Assembly: GCA_018303545.1 (NCBI GenBank)
Contig: JAGVXY010000012.1
Location: 1-37,210, forward strand
DNA: 37,210 bases
Origin: Candidatus Woesearchaeota archaeon
Lineage (GTDB): Archaea; Nanobdellota; Nanobdellia; SCGC-AAA011-G17; JAGVXY01
Reading direction: 5' to 3'
Shown: piece after piece, positions 13,662-31,413 of the stretch
Numbering within the stretch: position 1 is the first letter of the stretch
Layout of the letters: every line of letters begins with the position of its first letter
Position numbers and translations under genes: made by a program
Notes under the pieces: generated by a model
Told to the model about the DNA's origin: nothing
Databases searched by the model: none
Seen by the model: the letters and a program-made list of their open reading frames with translations, nothing else

Positions 13662-14168
13662 TTAGGGTTTAATGCTCAAAATTAAGGATTCTTCATTATC
13701 CAAACCCTCTGATGCGCCAATTACCCGAATATTACAAATGGCATTTCTTACGCCTCCACCATTTTCTTCAATAACTATAAAATCATTAAACTTTGCTAAA
13801 GAATTTAAAGTCTTCATTGGTGTTTCTGTATTACCAGAACTTGAGAAATAACATTTTATTTTTGGGTCTTTTGACTCTGCCTTAAGTTTATATTCCAATA
13901 TTTCTGCCTCTGTGTTGTAAATTATTACACCTACAACCCGAGTACTTCTACTTGTCAATTCTTTTTGATTTGTAGTAAGAGTGATTAATGTGTCTGGTTC
14001 AATATTTTGTAAATCTTTTCTTGCCTGATCCAACATATCATCTGTCATAGGGGCGATTTTTTCAAATATGCTTCTAACAAAAAATAATCCCATGCTTAGA
14101 ACAACTACACCTATTACTATAACGATAATTACATTCATTGACAATTCAATTGCTGCTCGTTTATTCAT
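13662..14168 (-). CDS. Type IV pilin-like single-TM protein
   Basis: MNKRAAIELSMNVIIVIVIGVVVLSMGLFFVRSIF N-terminus, paralogous to the next gene. Confidence 0.6.
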   Translation of the reverse strand: MNKRAAIELSMNVIIVIVIGVVVLSMGLFFVRSIFEKIAPMTDDMLDQARKDLQNIEPDTLITLTTNQKELTSRSTRVVGVIIYNTEAEILEYKLKAESKDPKIKCYFSSSGNTETPMKTLNSLAKFNDFIVIEENGGGVRNAICNIRVIGASEGLDNEESLILSIKP

Positions 14169-14183
14169 CTTGTTTTCCTACCT

Positions 14184-14705
14184 TTATTCTACCCGCACTA
14201 TAACTGATCCAGTGTTCTCTTCCCCACCAGTATCTCCGATAACTTCAATATAACAACTAGTTGTCCTTAAGCTACCGCCGTTTTCCTTTACGAGCAAAAT
14301 GTATTCATTTTTACCCCCAGAAGCTAAGGTTTTTTCATCTGTTTTTGCATTCATTCCACCTTTGACGCTAAAAACACAGTTTAAATCTTTGTCTCCTGGA
14401 GTTGCTTCAAGGTGATATTTTAATGGTGTTTCTAATGTGTTAAAAACGACGACACCAATGCCCTTATCTGCGCTTTGACTTATCTTTATGTTTAAAGGAG
14501 AGATTGTCAATAAAGAGTCTATCTGACCTAAACCCCCTAATGCAGACTGCGCTTCTTCAAAAGCCCCCTGGGAGATTTCACTAACTCCAGAAAATATGCT
14601 TCTAACGAAGACCAAACCCAAACTTAAAAGAACAACACCTATAACTATGACTATGATAGTATTCATTGACATTTCAATTGCAGCTTTTCTATTCAATATA
14701 ATCAC
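14184..14705 (-). CDS. Type IV pilin-like single-TM protein (tandem paralog)
   Basis: NRKAAIEMSMNTIIVIVIGVVLLSLGLVFVRSIFSG N-terminus nearly identical to the downstream gene; shared C-terminal layout with an EENGG/KENGG motif. Confidence 0.6.
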   Translation of the reverse strand: MIILNRKAAIEMSMNTIIVIVIGVVLLSLGLVFVRSIFSGVSEISQGAFEEAQSALGGLGQIDSLLTISPLNIKISQSADKGIGVVVFNTLETPLKYHLEATPGDKDLNCVFSVKGGMNAKTDEKTLASGGKNEYILLVKENGGSLRTTSCYIEVIGDTGGEENTGSVIVRVE

Positions 14706-14735: not shown

Positions 14736-15887
14736 TTAAATGTTATTGTAATTTTTGCTCAAGATTTCTTCATGCGAGGGGCGCATCAACTGTATTCCAT
14801 GCTTTTTGAAAAGCTCTTCAAGGCTATTATGGCCATAATGTTTTATATAACTTTCTTTCATTTCAGTATGATTTAGAAATATTTGTTTTAATGTGAATTT
14901 ATATGAACGCTCTGCAATTTCACCCATCTTTTCGGATTTTTGTGGATTCTCAAAAAGACCCCAATCATTTTTAGACGGCTCAAAAAGGAGAATATCTATA
15001 TGGGGGTATTTAATTTTATAATTTATTAATGAATGATGCAATCGAGAATGATTTGCAGCCCTTAATGATTGTTGCAAAATCTTACCTTCGCTAAGAATTT
15101 TTCCGGGTGAGGTTTTTATTGGCCTGAGGGGATTTATGCAGATTATAAATTCGGCACCATTATTTATAACATTTTGTATATAGGTGGTGTTATTCAGTGC
15201 CCCATCAGTGAAGCATTTAAGGCAATTATCACTGAAATATTTTCCAGGAATAATTGTTGGTTCAAAATAACCGGGCAGAGAGCAAGATGCTTTTACTGCT
15301 AGAGAAATTGGGACATTGTTATAATTCTTGTTTCCAAAAACTATAGGCTCTGTTAATTCTCCGTTATCTGTATCTGTTGCACAGATGTACAATTCTTTTT
15401 CCAATTTACTGAAATCATCAGTTCTAGAATCTTTTGAGAATAAATCTTTTAAATAAAGCTCCAGTCCTCTGCCGGAATGAATGCCCTCTGAAAGTATCTT
15501 TTCACCCATATCAAAAATAAGATTATAAGCAAATTCAAAACTTATGGGGTTTTTCATATCTAATGTCCAATCAATAAACTTCTTTGCCGGAAACAATGAT
15601 ATTTTTGCCAGCTTCAACAAAAGGTCCAGGTTAAACTTTTGAAGTTTCATGCCGTTGAACATTTTTACGTTCTTTGTATCATTGAATAATGAGGCATATA
15701 TTTCATCTATGGGGAGTTGATTTGCAAGCAATGATGCAACAAATGCGCCGGCGCTTAAACCCTGATAAATATCAAACTTATTTATAGAAAAATTCTGCAT
15801 TTGCTGATTTAGAGCTTTCAAGGTGCCGATTTCATATGCCGCACCAAGAAAACCTCCGCCGCATAGGATTATTGCTTTTTTGCCCAT
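14736..15887 (-). CDS. Patatin-like phospholipase
   Basis: GGGFLGAAYEIGTLKAL oxyanion loop, GLSAGAF nucleophile elbow, TDGALNN Asp motif. Confidence 0.88.
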   Translation of the reverse strand: MGKKAIILCGGGFLGAAYEIGTLKALNQQMQNFSINKFDIYQGLSAGAFVASLLANQLPIDEIYASLFNDTKNVKMFNGMKLQKFNLDLLLKLAKISLFPAKKFIDWTLDMKNPISFEFAYNLIFDMGEKILSEGIHSGRGLELYLKDLFSKDSRTDDFSKLEKELYICATDTDNGELTEPIVFGNKNYNNVPISLAVKASCSLPGYFEPTIIPGKYFSDNCLKCFTDGALNNTTYIQNVINNGAEFIICINPLRPIKTSPGKILSEGKILQQSLRAANHSRLHHSLINYKIKYPHIDILLFEPSKNDWGLFENPQKSEKMGEIAERSYKFTLKQIFLNHTEMKESYIKHYGHNSLEELFKKHGIQLMRPSHEEILSKNYNNI

Positions 15888-15981: not shown

Positions 15982-16512
15982 CTAGAAACCTTTAGAGATT
16001 AATCTTACTGCTTGAGCAGCGATAGCCAGGATTAAGAATGCCCCTAAAACACGAGGGTCAAATAAAATCTTTCCAATAGTACTACCAAAAGTCTGATTTC
16101 CTGAATCATCAGGGCTTGTTAAATTACGGATGTCTTCCCCGAAAACTTGTGTAATTGCTATTCCCCCAATGATGAAAAGCATTATCATTATTAGCCAAAC
16201 ATTTGTTGATTCTTGTGCGAATTCTGAAATAATGTCCGGCTTGACTCCGAGCATAAGAAAGAAAAGCATGGCTATGACAACAAACATAAGCAATAAAATA
16301 AACCAAGGTGTGGCAACTTCTACTAGTTTGCTTGCACCAGGCATAATTATGAAAAGCAAAGCTATGGTTACTGCAGCTATACCATCTAACCCCTTATTAC
16401 CACCAAGGATTTTTGTTTTCTGCATTACTCCATACATTAAACCAAATATGAATACGAAGGTAATTATTGGGGAAAAGAATTTCAATAGCCCTACGTCAAG
16501 TACTGTTGCCAT
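15982..16512 (-). CDS. Multi-TM membrane protein, family C of a tandem paralog set
   Basis: Several hydrophobic segments; shares the LKFFSPIITFVFIFGLMYGVMQKTKILGG layout with its neighbours. Confidence 0.65.
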   Translation of the reverse strand: MATVLDVGLLKFFSPIITFVFIFGLMYGVMQKTKILGGNKGLDGIAAVTIALLFIIMPGASKLVEVATPWFILLLMFVVIAMLFFLMLGVKPDIISEFAQESTNVWLIMIMLFIIGGIAITQVFGEDIRNLTSPDDSGNQTFGSTIGKILFDPRVLGAFLILAIAAQAVRLISKGF

Positions 16513-16988
16513 TATTTCCCTCCTTTACGAACTATTGACCAGATTACAACAAATGGGGCGCCAATTATTAAAAGCCAAACAAGATTACGAGCGTCTAAAC
16601 TTAACCAATAAGGCAATTTGAATCCTGCGCCTGCAACTAATGCCCATATTAAACCTATTGTGGCAACTACAATTGCAACTGAAAACAAAGTATCATGAGT
16701 GGTTTTTCCTGTGAATAATCCTAAAATAAGCAAAAATGCCAATATCGCTAATAGAACCATTGAAACATTTGGCAGGAAACGCTGAATCATGTTGTAAAAA
16801 AATGTTGTTCTGATAACTAAGAATGCAATGACTAAAGCGATTATTGGGTTGACTTTATTGCTTGCGTCACCGAAAATATTTATTTTATCTAAAATACCGT
16901 AGATTATTGCAAAGACTAATAAGAAGGGCAGTAATATTTTGAAGAATCCTAATTTATCCAATTGCCCCATTATTTGATCTAAGGTCAC
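16512..16988 (-). CDS. Multi-TM membrane protein, family B of a tandem paralog set
   Basis: LDKLGFFKILLPFLLVFAIIYGILDKINIFG matches the N-terminal motif of the adjacent gene. Confidence 0.65.
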   Translation of the reverse strand: MTLDQIMGQLDKLGFFKILLPFLLVFAIIYGILDKINIFGDASNKVNPIIALVIAFLVIRTTFFYNMIQRFLPNVSMVLLAILAFLLILGLFTGKTTHDTLFSVAIVVATIGLIWALVAGAGFKLPYWLSLDARNLVWLLIIGAPFVVIWSIVRKGGK

Positions 16989-17548
16989 TTTCCATCACCT
17001 GTTTTATTGCTGCCACCGACAATATAAGTTACTGCAAATGCTACCACTAATAATATGAATACTCCTAAAACCGCATCTTTTGAAAGCCAATGCGCCATAA
17101 AACTATAAACTGGGTCCCACCATCCTAGAGAGAAGATGAATACTCCTATTAATCCTATGAAAATTAAAACACCAAAGAAGATGACCCAGCCTTGGCCTAA
17201 GTATTCCTTATCAAATATATTTTTTCCTTGGCCTAACAGCATTCCAACAAGCATCATAAATGAAACAATGATTATTAATCCTAAAGCCACTTGAGGCATT
17301 GAGGTTTTTATTGTTTGTACAATCTTTGTTGCGCTTACGACAAATAATGCAATTGCAAAAGCAATCATTGAATTCAAATCTTTTCTTGGAACGTCATTGT
17401 CTTTTAATTTTACAGTTCCAAAAAGTCTTGTTTTTTCAAGAACCCCAAAAACAATTGTGAATACGAGAAGAAAAGGAAGGACTACATCGAAGAAGCCTAA
17501 TTTATTTAGGAACTCAATAGCAACTCCTAATGTAGTCGTATCTGCCAT
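16985..17548 (-). CDS. Multi-TM membrane protein, family A of a tandem paralog set
   Basis: LNKLGFFDVVLPFLLVFTIVFGVLEKTRLFG matches the next gene; 4-nt overlap with it. Confidence 0.65.
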   Translation of the reverse strand: MADTTTLGVAIEFLNKLGFFDVVLPFLLVFTIVFGVLEKTRLFGTVKLKDNDVPRKDLNSMIAFAIALFVVSATKIVQTIKTSMPQVALGLIIIVSFMMLVGMLLGQGKNIFDKEYLGQGWVIFFGVLIFIGLIGVFIFSLGWWDPVYSFMAHWLSKDAVLGVFILLVVAFAVTYIVGGSNKTGDGK

Positions 17549-17817
17549 TATTCTGTTTCCTCTTTCTCATATGAAGGCATTGCGGCTTTTGAAATTATCA
17601 TTACGTCACCTATAGCTTTCACAAAGTTATGGGGCACGATTACGCCTTTAGCTCCGCCTAAAACATTCAAGAGATATGATTGTTTTGTGGCCTTTATGCG
17701 CCATGCATGGACTTTGTTACCTGCTAGGACGCTCTCTTCAATTTCTCCAAAGTAATCACCTGCATCGGTGAACACTTTCATATTCAACATTTCAGAAACA
17801 AATTTTGTGTTTAACAT
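17548..17817 (-). CDS. PRC-barrel domain protein
   Basis: MKVFTDAGDYFGEIEESVLAGNKVHAWRIK...GVIVPHNFVKAIGDVMIISK pattern; SD-like GGGAGGCGAT upstream. Confidence 0.8.
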   Translation of the reverse strand: MLNTKFVSEMLNMKVFTDAGDYFGEIEESVLAGNKVHAWRIKATKQSYLLNVLGGAKGVIVPHNFVKAIGDVMIISKAAMPSYEKEETE

Positions 17818-19413: not shown

Positions 19414-20106
19414 ATGGAAAGATACAAGAACCTGATACTTATTGGAACATCACATATTGCCATTGAATCTGTAAACACCGTTAGAGAAATTATTGAGTCC
19501 GAGAAACCCGATGTTGTTGCATTAGAGTTGGATTATAATCGATTTGCTGCTTTGATGTCTAAGAAAAAAGATTCACATTCTTTCTGGAAAGCAATAAGAA
19601 CTTTAGGTATAAAGGGATTTATTTTTAATTTACTTGGTGCCTGGGTTGAGAATAAACTTGGAAAAATTGTCGGAGTAAAACCTGGATCTGAAATGAAACA
19701 GGCTGCAATATCGGCTAAAGGAACAAATGCTAAGATTGCGATGATAGATCAGGATATAAGAATAACAATAAAAAAACTTATTAAAGGAATAACCTGGAGA
19801 GAGAAATTCAGGTTTATTGGAGATATTTTTAAGGCAATATTATTTAGGAAACCGATAATTGAACCTTTTGATTTGAGAACTGTCCCAAAAAAAGAAACTG
19901 TAAAAAAATTGACAATGATGCTGAAAAAGAGCTATCCTTCAGTTTATAATACACTAATAAAAGAGAGAAATGAAATTATGGCAAAAAATTTATATAATCT
20001 AATGAACTTTGGAAAGATTGTGGCTGTTGTAGGAGCAGGCCACGAAGATGAGATTATTGGATTGATAGAAAAAAATGTTCAACATGACAAAAAAAGAAGT
20101 GATTGA
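19414..20106 (+). CDS. TraB/PrgY-family protein
   Basis: ILIGTSHIAIES..PDVVALELD..GSEMKQAAISAK..IDQDIRITIKKL..VVGAGHEDEI; both GxxH motifs present. Confidence 0.85.
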   Translation: MERYKNLILIGTSHIAIESVNTVREIIESEKPDVVALELDYNRFAALMSKKKDSHSFWKAIRTLGIKGFIFNLLGAWVENKLGKIVGVKPGSEMKQAAISAKGTNAKIAMIDQDIRITIKKLIKGITWREKFRFIGDIFKAILFRKPIIEPFDLRTVPKKETVKKLTMMLKKSYPSVYNTLIKERNEIMAKNLYNLMNFGKIVAVVGAGHEDEIIGLIEKNVQHDKKRSD

Positions 20107-20848
20107 ATCTCTAGTTATTGTTTTATTTTTAACACTGTTTTTTGGCTTCAATGACGGAAGAGAAACTTTTGTAGCTTCATACTGGTTTGCGAATTTGCTG
20201 AGAATATTTGTTATTGTAATGATTACATTTATGGTTCATGTTTTTGGGCACAAGGTTGTTGCAAGCATCTATGGCGCAACTGTGACGACGAAAAATTGGG
20301 CTATACAGAGATATTGGATAACTCAACGAGCTCATTTGCCTATAGCAATGAATTTTTTTGGTGCAAGATACAAAATTAATTCTCTTTACATTGGTGTAGT
20401 TATAGGAATAATTGTAACTTTGATATCAAACGGAAAATTTTGGTTCGCAGGGCTTGAAAGCCAGGAATTATCAATAGACCGATTCAAGAGATTGGGCAAA
20501 GGAGGAATTGCGATATCAAAATGGGAAGTGGCAAAGATTGCAATAGCTGGTTCTATGGCTAATGTGATTTTGATTTTTTTGCTAGGGATATTTAATTCAT
20601 CAGGGATATTTGATAAATTTATTTTGATTGGAGGATTATTTGCAATTTATTCAATGTTTCCTTTGCCTGGGTTGGATGGCAATACTGTGTATTTTGAATC
20701 AAAACCATTGTATATATTTGGATTCTGCTTCATTGTGCTTTCATTCTTTTTATTGCAGTTCTTAACTGCGGGAGCGACATTGTTTATGACCTTGTTGCTG
20801 ACGTTTGTAATAGGCACCACTTGGTTTTATTTTAGAATGTTCAAGTAA
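20084..20848 (+). CDS. Peptidase M50-like integral membrane protein with non-canonical active site
   Basis: Multi-TM; HVFGHKVVASIYG at the HExxH position and MFPLPGLDGNTVYF at the NPDG-like position; overlaps the TraB gene 3' end. Confidence 0.7.
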   Translation: MTKKEVIESLVIVLFLTLFFGFNDGRETFVASYWFANLLRIFVIVMITFMVHVFGHKVVASIYGATVTTKNWAIQRYWITQRAHLPIAMNFFGARYKINSLYIGVVIGIIVTLISNGKFWFAGLESQELSIDRFKRLGKGGIAISKWEVAKIAIAGSMANVILIFLLGIFNSSGIFDKFILIGGLFAIYSMFPLPGLDGNTVYFESKPLYIFGFCFIVLSFFLLQFLTAGATLFMTLLLTFVIGTTWFYFRMFK

Positions 20849-24213: not shown

Positions 24214-25668
24214 GTGAATCCTGCTGCGAAATTATTGAAGTCCTTGAATTCAAAGCAGAGGGCGTATGTAAATTTAGATCTTAAAGCTCCAAAAAATGGA
24301 GAATACATGCTTGTAGTCTTTCATCTTATTCCAGGTGAAAAGCTGAATATTCTGCAAGCCGCAAGTGAAGTTGCGGCGGAATCATCTACTGGAACAAATT
24401 TTAAGGTAAGTACTGAGACTGCTTTTTCGAGAGAGCTTAATGCTTTAGTATATAATGTAGATTTAAAGAGAAATTTAATATGGGTTGCTTATCCTTGGAG
24501 AATTTTTGACCGTGGCGGAAATGTACAGAACATCTTGACCTTTGTTGTAGGGAATGTTTTGGGGATGAAAGAGATTTCTGCATTGAAAATGCTAGATGTC
24601 TGGTTTCCCACAGAGATGCTTGAACACTATGACGGACCTTCGTATACATTGGATGATATGAGAAAGTATTTGGGGGTTTATGGCAGGCCTATATTGGGTA
24701 CAATTATAAAACCCAAGATTGGTTTGACTGCTGCTGAATATGCTGAAGTATGTTATGATTTTTGGTCGGGAGGAGGAGATTTTGTCAAGAATGATGAGCC
24801 TCAAGCCAACCAGGATTTTTGCGATTATGAAAAGATGGTCAAGTTTGTTAAAAAAGCTATGGATAAGGCGGTTAAGGAGACAGGCCATAAGAAGGTTCAC
24901 TCTTTCAATGTTTCAGCATCGGATTTTGATGAGATGATTAGAAGGTGCGAACTAATAAGGAAAACAGGTTTTGAAAAGGGAAGTTATGCTTATCTAATAG
25001 ATGGGATAACTGCAGGATGGATGGCAGTGCAGACCTTGAGAAGAAAGTACCCTAATGTGTTTTTGCATTTTCATAGGGCTGCGCATGGTGCTTTTACCCG
25101 ACCTGAAAATCCTATTGGATTTTCGGTATTGGTTTTATCGAAATTTGCAAAATTGGCGGGAGCTTCAGGGATACATACAGGCACAGCTGGCGTTGGAAAG
25201 ATGAAAGGCTCACCTGATGAAGATATCACTGCAGCGAAGAATATTTTGCATTTAATATCTAAGGGACATTTCTTTGAACAGAGCTGGGCTCAGGTGCCCC
25301 AGAATGATGAACAAGTTTTGAAAATTGCAAAGGAAGATTATGCCAATCATGTGATATTGAATGATGATTCTTGGAGGGGTATGAAAAAATGTTGCCCGAT
25401 AATCTCCGGGGGTTTAAATCCCACTAAACTAAAATCTTTCATAGATATTATGGGGGAAGTTGATTTTATAACTACGATGGGAGCAGGTGTGCATGCGCAT
25501 CCTCGCGGGACTTATTATGGGGCTAAGGCTTTGATACAAGCTTGCGAGGCTTATAATAAAGGAATTAATATCAGGGCCTATGCAAAAAGCCACAAAGAAT
25601 TAGCGGAAGCGATAAACTTTTTTGAGAATAGAAAAGAAACAAAGGCATTGTCTAATGAGAGGAGTTAA
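24214..25668 (+). CDS. rbcL: RuBisCO large subunit, archaeal form (II/III-like)
   Basis: GTIIKPKIGL, GGGDFVKNDEPQ, HFHRAAHGA, ASGIHTGTAGVGKMKG, PIISGG, MGAGVHAHPRG; GTG start after GAGGTGAT. Confidence 0.9.
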   Translation: MNPAAKLLKSLNSKQRAYVNLDLKAPKNGEYMLVVFHLIPGEKLNILQAASEVAAESSTGTNFKVSTETAFSRELNALVYNVDLKRNLIWVAYPWRIFDRGGNVQNILTFVVGNVLGMKEISALKMLDVWFPTEMLEHYDGPSYTLDDMRKYLGVYGRPILGTIIKPKIGLTAAEYAEVCYDFWSGGGDFVKNDEPQANQDFCDYEKMVKFVKKAMDKAVKETGHKKVHSFNVSASDFDEMIRRCELIRKTGFEKGSYAYLIDGITAGWMAVQTLRRKYPNVFLHFHRAAHGAFTRPENPIGFSVLVLSKFAKLAGASGIHTGTAGVGKMKGSPDEDITAAKNILHLISKGHFFEQSWAQVPQNDEQVLKIAKEDYANHVILNDDSWRGMKKCCPIISGGLNPTKLKSFIDIMGEVDFITTMGAGVHAHPRGTYYGAKALIQACEAYNKGINIRAYAKSHKELAEAINFFENRKETKALSNERS

Positions 25669-27036
25669 TTATCTTAAGTTTCTGCACGCAGAATCGTTTT
25701 CTATGTGGGGATTTATTTGGTGCATCCATCCCTGGTGATTATTAATGTCAGTATTATCATAATGTAAACGTTTCCATTCCCTGACCCAATTGACTTGTTC
25801 ATCTTGCCTGTAATTCCAGCTTAATCCAAAAAGACCCCCCAATAATTCATTATGGCTGTCTTTTTCGCCAACATAAACGTTTTTATAGACTGTTCCTTCT
25901 GGTGCAACTGTTGCTAATATGTAGAAGAACTGATAGCCATTAGTTGTGTAATGTCTTATTGTTGTTCCTGTGACTTCGTGGGTATTCCCGTTCGAATCTG
26001 TTTCTATGGTGGTGTAGCTTTCTGTTTCCCAATGACTGAATGTTTTTGATTTCTTGTCATGAGAAGAGACAAAAATGAAATACTGCTCATGCAATTCTTT
26101 GAAATAATTGTCTAAAGCCCTGATATTCTCATCTCCTAAATGAATAAATGAAATCGGTTCGTTCTGTTTCTGCAATAACTCTTTATAATCCGAGGTTAAG
26201 AATTTGCCATCGTGCTGCTCTGCCCTATACCAAGTAAGAGCATCATTCTTTTCTCTGACTTTCATGTAAGCAGAAAATGCGGCATCATACATCCTTCTTG
26301 CATTTGCAGATATTTTTGGAGTTTTGCCGAATTCTGCAATATGCGAAAATAATGGATTTATTCTGATGATATTTGCACCTAAACTATTGTTTAGTTCAGG
26401 AAGCAATTGACTAAGTTTTAATTCTAAATCCGGGTTTGCTATTGGAATCATGTCAATAAATTTTTTTGGTATAACCTTTACTTCTTCCATATTATCAGGA
26501 GTCAAAGGTTTTTTTAATCTAGCTTTTAGGTACCATTCATTATTTACTGTTGTGTCTCGGGCTTCGCGCTTTTCCTGGCAAATCCTTATGACTTTCGTAT
26601 CAAGATCGCCCTTTTCTTCTTTTGCAATTATTGAAGGGGTGATTCTTGTCTTAGATTTCAATCCAAATTTTGGGTCTAAGGTTTCACGCACAATATCGTA
26701 ATCTTTGCTTTGAAATTCATTTTTTGTTTCTTGCAATGTTTCCTTAATTTGAACTGTTTTTTTTAGAGTGTCTTCTAATTCAGCGTACAAAGGGGCAATC
26801 TCTTCAGGACCAGTCATTAAAAATTTATTATTTTCTATTATATTTACGGCGTTTGAATAGGTTTTTTTTAAAGTTTCTAGATCTTGTGATGTTGACTCAA
26901 TCAGAGTGTTTGCAGAATGTTTCTGATACGCTGTTTTCAGGTAAGGAAATGAGATTATGCCCCCTAAGGCAAACAATGCGGAAGTGACTAATGCAATCAA
27001 TTTTTTATTTGACTTTTTTTGTGAATAGCTGTACAT
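25669..27036 (-). CDS. Uncharacterised membrane-anchored, coiled-coil secreted protein
   Basis: MYSYSQKKSNKKLIALVTSALFALGGIISF signal/anchor; start at 27036 supported by TATA-like GTTTATAAAC at 27061-27070. Confidence 0.6.
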   Translation of the reverse strand: MYSYSQKKSNKKLIALVTSALFALGGIISFPYLKTAYQKHSANTLIESTSQDLETLKKTYSNAVNIIENNKFLMTGPEEIAPLYAELEDTLKKTVQIKETLQETKNEFQSKDYDIVRETLDPKFGLKSKTRITPSIIAKEEKGDLDTKVIRICQEKREARDTTVNNEWYLKARLKKPLTPDNMEEVKVIPKKFIDMIPIANPDLELKLSQLLPELNNSLGANIIRINPLFSHIAEFGKTPKISANARRMYDAAFSAYMKVREKNDALTWYRAEQHDGKFLTSDYKELLQKQNEPISFIHLGDENIRALDNYFKELHEQYFIFVSSHDKKSKTFSHWETESYTTIETDSNGNTHEVTGTTIRHYTTNGYQFFYILATVAPEGTVYKNVYVGEKDSHNELLGGLFGLSWNYRQDEQVNWVREWKRLHYDNTDINNHQGWMHQINPHIENDSACRNLR

Positions 27037-27110
27037 TTTAACCCTTAATTTATAGGCTCTGTTTATAAACATTTCTTTTTTTTGAAATTAAGGCTGGTTC
27101 CAGGAAAACA

Positions 27111-30123: not shown

Positions 30124-31413
30124 ATGAAGAACAAAAACTCAAGCTGGCAAAAATCATTAATGCTGGGGTCTGCTGTATTTCTTTTCGCATATGGCCTTGT
30201 TTCTTCTGTGCCCGTAATGATAGATTATGCAAGGAATTTATCTCATAGGCCTGAAACCACGGCTCAAAGCAAACCTACAAATAAGATCGGAAAAACAAAT
30301 ATTGAAAAACAACCAAGTCATGGCTATGCTTTTCCAGACAAAATTAAAAGTTCAAATTTAGAAAAAAAAGTTGATGATTATAGTTCTTTGCAGCCCCTTA
30401 AATCAATTGAAAAAAATAAAATTAATTATAGTTCTTTTGATACTGATGATTTTGAATCAATGGGGCAATTTGTGGGCCAAGATTATGAAGAATTTAAGAA
30501 AAAAATTGAAAACTTAATTAATAATTGTGATATGATTGGTGCAATAAACTTTGCAGGGGATATTGATAAGAAACAAGTAGAATTTATTATTAAAAATGCA
30601 TTGGATGAAATTAGCCCCGAACAGCTTAATTTTTGCATTGAAGGGCAGTCATTGGCTCGAGGGGGCCTGATCCATGGAGATTTAAGTTTGTTTAACCGAA
30701 CAATAAGGGCAATGTATAACTATGATTTAGATTTATTGAATATTTATATTAATGCGATTGATGAAAAATTATGCATTAGTGTCGAATCTTCTTCAAGATA
30801 CTTTATGAATATAATGATAAATGACCCTGAATTTGACGAGATAACTGCAAAAAAATATATTCATTTATATGCTACGCTCTATAACCCGGGATTTGATGAA
30901 AAAGAAAATTTTTTGAGACTTATTACCAATTATAATCTTAAATACGATAAAAATATTTCTTTAGGGGACATTGCTAGGGAAATTATATTGCCTGTTGATG
31001 AGATTATGTCTTATTACCTTGATTTTGATAAAGATTATGAATCTGCATTTCTATTTGTGGATGATATGGTCTATGGTTCTTTCGATGCTTCAATATACAC
31101 TTCTGAAAAATTTTCCCTTTTGGAAAAAGCATTGGTTGAAAGTAAAGATGAATATTTTGCTTATGCAATAATTGAATCTGCTATGCGCGCGGAGGCGCTA
31201 GAAATTAGATCAAAACTTAAAAATGGAAATTTAGGTATAGAAGATTATTGCGAAACTGTTGAAAGACTCATTTCTATCGAAAATGAATTCAAATATCGTA
31301 ATTTTGAATCGCCGATTGAACAAGAGTTTTTGGTTCAAAAAAGAGAAGATTGCAATTCTTTTTGGTCCGAAAGAGACGAGGACATAGTTCTTTTGAATAA
31401 CAATATTTATTAA
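30124..31413 (+). CDS. Uncharacterised protein with N-terminal TM anchor
   Basis: 429-aa ORF, hydrophobic segment SLMLGSAVFLFAYGLVSSVPVMI followed by an acidic, helix-rich region. Confidence 0.55.
   Translation: MKNKNSSWQKSLMLGSAVFLFAYGLVSSVPVMIDYARNLSHRPETTAQSKPTNKIGKTNIEKQPSHGYAFPDKIKSSNLEKKVDDYSSLQPLKSIEKNKINYSSFDTDDFESMGQFVGQDYEEFKKKIENLINNCDMIGAINFAGDIDKKQVEFIIKNALDEISPEQLNFCIEGQSLARGGLIHGDLSLFNRTIRAMYNYDLDLLNIYINAIDEKLCISVESSSRYFMNIMINDPEFDEITAKKYIHLYATLYNPGFDEKENFLRLITNYNLKYDKNISLGDIAREIILPVDEIMSYYLDFDKDYESAFLFVDDMVYGSFDASIYTSEKFSLLEKALVESKDEYFAYAIIESAMRAEALEIRSKLKNGNLGIEDYCETVERLISIENEFKYRNFESPIEQEFLVQKREDCNSFWSERDEDIVLLNNNIY

Follow-up and report, generated by a model that had tools for sequence, protein, structure and literature searches.

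According to Hamm et al. (2024; PMC11291902), type IV pilus loci of DPANN archaea, from Woesearchaeota, Pacearchaeota, Nanoarchaeota and others, encode a CpaF-like ATPase, a TadC-like platform and coiled-coil proteins. Pilus loci with coiled-coil genes are also reported for Nanohaloarchaeota, Aenigmatarchaeota and Undinarchaeota. The archaeal pilus loci described by Makarova (2016; PMC4858521) are mostly simpler, and some of them carry one or two extra membrane proteins. The genes for the attachment organelles of Nanobdellota are not known (PMC11104419, PMC11420986), and archaeal PRC-barrel proteins have been tied to SepF/FtsZ division (PMC10936438, PMC12186497).

Here we analysed a contig of 37,210 nucleotides, termed the window, which is a whole contig of a 0.9-Mb genome of Candidatus Woesearchaeota archaeon; the named relatives within its phylum are Woesearchaeota/Nanoarchaeota. 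It holds a block of four genes and, downstream on the same strand, two short genes that might belong to the same system:

17548-17817, minus strand: PRC-barrel protein (PRC), 89 aa, PF05239
16985-17548, minus strand: membrane protein A, 187 aa, about five transmembrane (TM) helices, invariant G18, L24, P25, F26, L28, F30 and G44
16512-16988, minus strand: membrane protein B, 158 aa, GTG start, about five TM helices, paralogue of A
15982-16512, minus strand: membrane protein C, 176 aa, paralogue of A and B, TPW and HP(K/R)xLG-type motifs
14184-14705, minus strand: class III pilin-like protein, 173 aa, tentative candidate for a filament subunit of the same machine
13662-14168, minus strand: class III pilin-like protein, 168 aa, tentative candidate for a filament subunit of the same machine

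The coordinates of the block, 15982-17817, bear out the four overlapping minus-strand frames described in the earlier note, with overlaps of 1 nt between PRC and A (17548), 4 nt between A and B (16985-16988) and 1 nt between B and C (16512). The first of these overlaps is peculiar to the window's genome; in the relatives PRC and A are separated by a gap of 10 to 396 nt. After C, in place of the coiled-coil and ATPase genes of the relatives, the window has a patatin-like phospholipase (14736-15887; PF01734, 79.9 bits). Elsewhere it encodes a RuBisCO large chain (24214-25668; PF00016, 316 bits) and two large proteins that match nothing in Pfam and carry a hydrophobic segment at the N-terminus (25669-27072 and 30124-31413).

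Paralogy, structure and distribution of A, B and C

Proteins A and B share 37% identity across 167 aa (E 3e-12). Profiles were built from aligned sequences of A (81), B (76) and C (75), and their comparison gave E values of 9e-43 for A-B, 1e-20 for A-C and 7e-21 for B-C, with hhalign scores of 273, 134 and 135, respectively, against a maximum of 31 for shuffles in which columns were permuted inside hydrophobic classes. The similarity of the three is far beyond chance, and they are genuine paralogues, just as they had been described from the window. A tree of 77 rows places A in one clade (support 92) and C in another (support 100), and B requires two changes, so that the trio looks like a set of old, distinct subunits. 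An extra B-like paralogue lies on another contig of the window's genome (C32; L067:8669-9202) next to Alba and an rpS17e-like gene, and is the sister of the window's B (support 95); a third match, beyond these two, is present only in some relatives. A 221-aa membrane protein encoded after T2SSF in locus L036 was tested as a fourth member of the family and rejected.

Searches of Pfam, NCBIfam and PHROGs with A, B and C returned no match above cut-off. A search of A against PDB sequences likewise gave nothing above cut-off, and relatives of A sought in viral contigs yielded none. The AlphaFold2 models of A and C have a mean pLDDT of 86 and pTM values of 0.58 and 0.64, respectively, and both are all helical except for a short hairpin in A. 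The fold search that had been proposed as a check against known complexes returned no match in the PDB for either model, and no match for A in a viral fold library (best E 0.8). Most A, B and C sequences have five hydrophobic segments, with a strongly basic loop 1 and K/R-poor loops 2 and 4. Taken together, the model, the hydrophobicity and the loop charges point to an N-out/C-in orientation, with loop 1 inside. Residues 56-104 of A form a 49-residue helix in the monomer model, which is compatible with either one helix or two TM segments. The conserved charges lie at the membrane ends, including D21, E38 and K39 at the ends of TM1 of A, with none in mid-membrane.

Relatives of A were found in 92 of the 103 genomes of the window's order (45 of 47 high-quality ones) and in 346 of 371 genomes of the phylum (233/243 high quality), nearly always as A-B-C. 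A second draw of genomes was searched by profile and gave 39 of 40; a scan of genome contigs with a single sequence had no match where the profile scan succeeded. Among the 81 loci with A, adjacency was counted for A-B in 78, B-C in 75, C and a coiled-coil gene in 63, the two coiled-coil genes in 58, and a coiled-coil gene and the ATPase in 44, the many contigs that end before the later genes being included in these counts. Conserved co-occurrence, whose absence had been set beforehand as grounds for refutation, thus strongly favours a conserved system. A locus named Aenigmatarchaeota (L138) was considered as spread beyond the phylum and rejected: it seems to fall in the window's own genome group, as loci of the window's phylum recur in the sample of its group.

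The linked type IV pilus-like machine

Where the contigs of the relatives are long enough, C is in most cases followed by genes for two soluble coiled-coil proteins and a FlaI/CpaF-like T2SSE ATPase; a tandem T2SSF platform and class III pilin-like proteins are encoded with them. One locus (L210) holds all of these genes together, the platform and ATPase being divergent from the coiled-coil genes, PRC and A-B-C, and distant families have the same genes in other arrangements. In the window's genome, the ATPase, platform and coiled-coil genes are on a separate contig, C15 (locus L066), and the A-B-C half and the ATPase/platform half are likewise apart in four other genomes (G182, G203, G107 and G110). 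The window's genome also has a second, conventional pilus cluster on contig C29, in the 12 kb of which no A-B-C gene was seen.

The ATPase (L066:4926-7196) is of the T2SSE class (PF00437, 48.3 bits against a cut-off of 24.9) and matches GspE2 in the PDB (2oap, E 5e-27), as well as CpaF and FlaI; its score against the FlaI equivalog model NF058587, 125.4 bits, is far under the cut-off of 550. The platform, of 737 aa, has two T2SSF domains: both halves of the protein match canonical T2SSF profiles at hhalign 96.8% (E 2e-10) and 96.7% (E 4e-10). By Pfam alone it falls under the cut-off in the window's genome and over it in one relative, and comparison with single TadC sequences gave no match, whereas profile-versus-profile comparison did. 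In a survey of 18 sources (17 relatives and the window's genome), the pilin-like family pil250 follows the platform in 15, and short class III-like proteins were found in most. The window's own proteins at 14184-14705 and 13662-14168 match the profile of pilin-like proteins following T2SSF in relatives with E values of 1.5e-11 and 7e-15, respectively. What they have in common with it is mainly the signal helix at the N-terminus, so that both are only tentatively assigned as filament subunits of the same machine. A T2SSE/VirB11-class ATPase, a T2SSF platform and class III pilin-like subunits, three of the features of the type IV filament superfamily, are present.

Among 52 members of the coiled-coil proteins, neither a hydrophobic segment nor a signal helix was seen, and a cytosolic location is thereby indicated. 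They have no match to FlaC or FlaD/E in Pfam and NCBIfam, a more remote homology being possible. Viral-fibre-like PDB matches of a coiled-coil protein were put down to coiled-coil composition.

Two features of individual loci are recorded here. In genome G097, the pilus ATPase gene (L040:1473-5321) is interrupted directly behind the IED motif by an intein, with matches to Intein_splicing (85 bits) and LAGLIDADG, and oversized ATPase frames with split matches in G011, G038, G072 and G372 suggest further inteins. In genome G272, a 253-aa protein encoded directly after the platform (L275:199-960, the same as L208:13434-14195) combines a pilin-like N-terminal helix with a transglycosylase SLT domain (47.7 bits). 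Such a domain is odd in an archaeon, as peptidoglycan is absent, and the protein might act on bacterial cell walls.

Association of the trio with its neighbours

We tested 42 genomes for A by profile and for an ATPase orthologue at E < 1e-100, 29 of which had been picked as A-negative by single-sequence search. Both genes were found in 22, A only in none, the ATPase only in 10 and neither in 10 (p = 1.3e-4), a co-occurrence inflated by incomplete assemblies and physical linkage, since adjacent genes go missing together. Among the genomes at least 90% complete, the corresponding numbers are 11, 0, 2 and 5 (p = 0.0025), and the five without both (G037, G158, G208, G253 and G284) are 90-98% complete. 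Half of the tested A-negative genomes retain the ATPase.

These data establish that the three proteins are paralogues and form an ordered trio throughout the phylum, that the trio is linked to the ATPase and tends to be absent together with it, and what the ATPase, platform and pilin-like genes are. They make it likely that the trio supplies membrane subunits to a single type IV pilus-like machine, nearly universal across the phylum (Nanobdellota, or Nanoarchaeota sensu lato). The trio, to which the earlier note could assign no function, is in this way tied by linkage and co-occurrence to a pilus-like machine. An alternative that we regard as unlikely is that A-B-C is an independent membrane complex, such as a channel, a transporter or a lipid-handling system, that merely shares the neighbourhood of the pilus locus, since blocks of genes in archaea may be conserved in the absence of functional coupling. 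It would fit the genomes that hold A-B-C apart from the ATPase, the example of PRC, from which adjacent genes of these genomes are seen to be separable at times, and the weak matches of A to Ion_trans and acyltransferase models, for all of which the window protein is under the curated cut-offs. Against it stand the absence of any genome with A but without the ATPase orthologue, the five nearly complete genomes that lack both, a linkage that recurs across many families in different arrangements, and the lack of the conserved mid-membrane charge that a transporter or channel would often have.

PRC is a stand-alone PRC-barrel (PF05239, 25.8 bits against a cut-off of 21.2). Its best PDB matches, 8qzo and 8onw (E 2.5e-15), are named there only as PRC-barrel domain-containing proteins and presumably come from archaeal division work. 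An orthologue is present in 21 of the 23 genomes tested. The earlier note had seen in PRC a cytoplasmic regulator of the complex; on that reading, PRC would bind A-B-C from the cytosolic side and control the complex. In the window's order, nearly every locus sampled does have PRC ahead of A, and families f60, f85 and f73 share this arrangement, with gaps that are mostly short and compatible with one transcript. However, PRC is beside A in just 28 of the 81 loci and encoded elsewhere in most other lineages; the genomes tested from beyond the order of the window encode it apart from A-B-C, several of them with TraB and M50 genes beside it, and its orthologue is kept in G158, G253, G284 and G208, all without A and the ATPase. 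A four-gene complex regulated by PRC is therefore improbable. In the window, TraB/PrgY and M50 protease-like genes lie at 19414-20848, and in several distant genomes they form a block with PRC that is independent of A-B-C. Given its persistence without A-B-C and the ATPase, its place with TraB/M50 and the published division link of PRC-barrel proteins, we treat PRC as a separate neighbour, probably with a division-related job of its own. As the adjacency of PRC and A recurs in several families, shared regulation is possible. Like CdpB1 and CdpB2 of Haloferax (PMC10936438, PMC12186497), PRC is a small PRC-barrel protein widely conserved in archaea; SepF binding and a requirement in FtsZ division are known from the literature on the former, and PRC may share them.

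An ion-driven stator of the MotA/ExbB/TolQ kind that powers the machine, although suggested by small multi-TM paralogues next to a motor ATPase gene, is very improbable, as counting of charged residues found no conserved acidic one within the TM segments of A, B and C, and A and C lack a fold match in the PDB.

Proposed role and comparison with known systems

Without a conserved charged residue in mid-membrane, A-B-C is probably structural. That it forms a hetero-oligomeric membrane complex, as proposed earlier, is likely, since the three multi-TM paralogues are conserved together. The machine would comprise A-B-C, the two cytosolic coiled-coil proteins, the diverged FlaI/CpaF-type ATPase, the double-T2SSF platform and the class III pilin-like subunits. 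We propose that A-B-C may encircle the tandem T2SSF platform within the cytoplasmic membrane as a hetero-oligomeric ring or collar, with the N-termini outside and the basic loop 1 and C-termini inside. The trio would dock the coiled-coil scaffold and the hexameric ATPase beneath, and hold the platform during pilin extraction from the membrane. The genetic links are observed directly, whereas the stoichiometry, the contacts and the direction of action of the trio are what we infer. Because the PDB holds no fold match for A or C, the role of the trio inside the machine is without structural precedent, and the membrane part of a near-universal machine falls in no described protein family.

These archaea are tiny, mostly symbiotic and presumed to live on other cells. 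The trio gives concrete genes with which to test how they hold on to a host and how exchange with it takes place; a link between A-B-C and the attachment organelles of Nanobdellota is a conjecture.

By gene content, the loci resemble the published DPANN loci (PMC11291902) in bringing ATPase, platform and coiled-coil genes together. A locus with pilus and coiled-coil genes had thus already been reported in DPANN; the A-B-C membrane trio is not mentioned in the available portion of that text. There, the coiled-coil proteins are compared with viral attachment proteins, whereas the count of 0/52 given above suggests a place in the cytosol. With the Aap, Ups and Pil type IV pili of archaea (Makarova 2016, PMC4858521), the machine has an ATPase, a platform protein and pilins in common, and differs from them in its ordered, near-universal paralogous membrane trio and its fused double platform. 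The archaellum motor (ArlCDE, F, G, H, I and J) shares the FlaI/CpaF-class ATPase, the T2SSF-type platform, coiled-coil proteins and class III pilin-like subunits, but the ATPase here scores 125 bits against the 550-bit FlaI equivalog cut-off, and the coiled-coil proteins have no FlaC/D/E match in Pfam. We know of no archaellum counterpart of A-B-C. Altogether, these comparisons suggest that the pilus machine of this phylum differs in architecture from the archaellum and from other archaeal pili.
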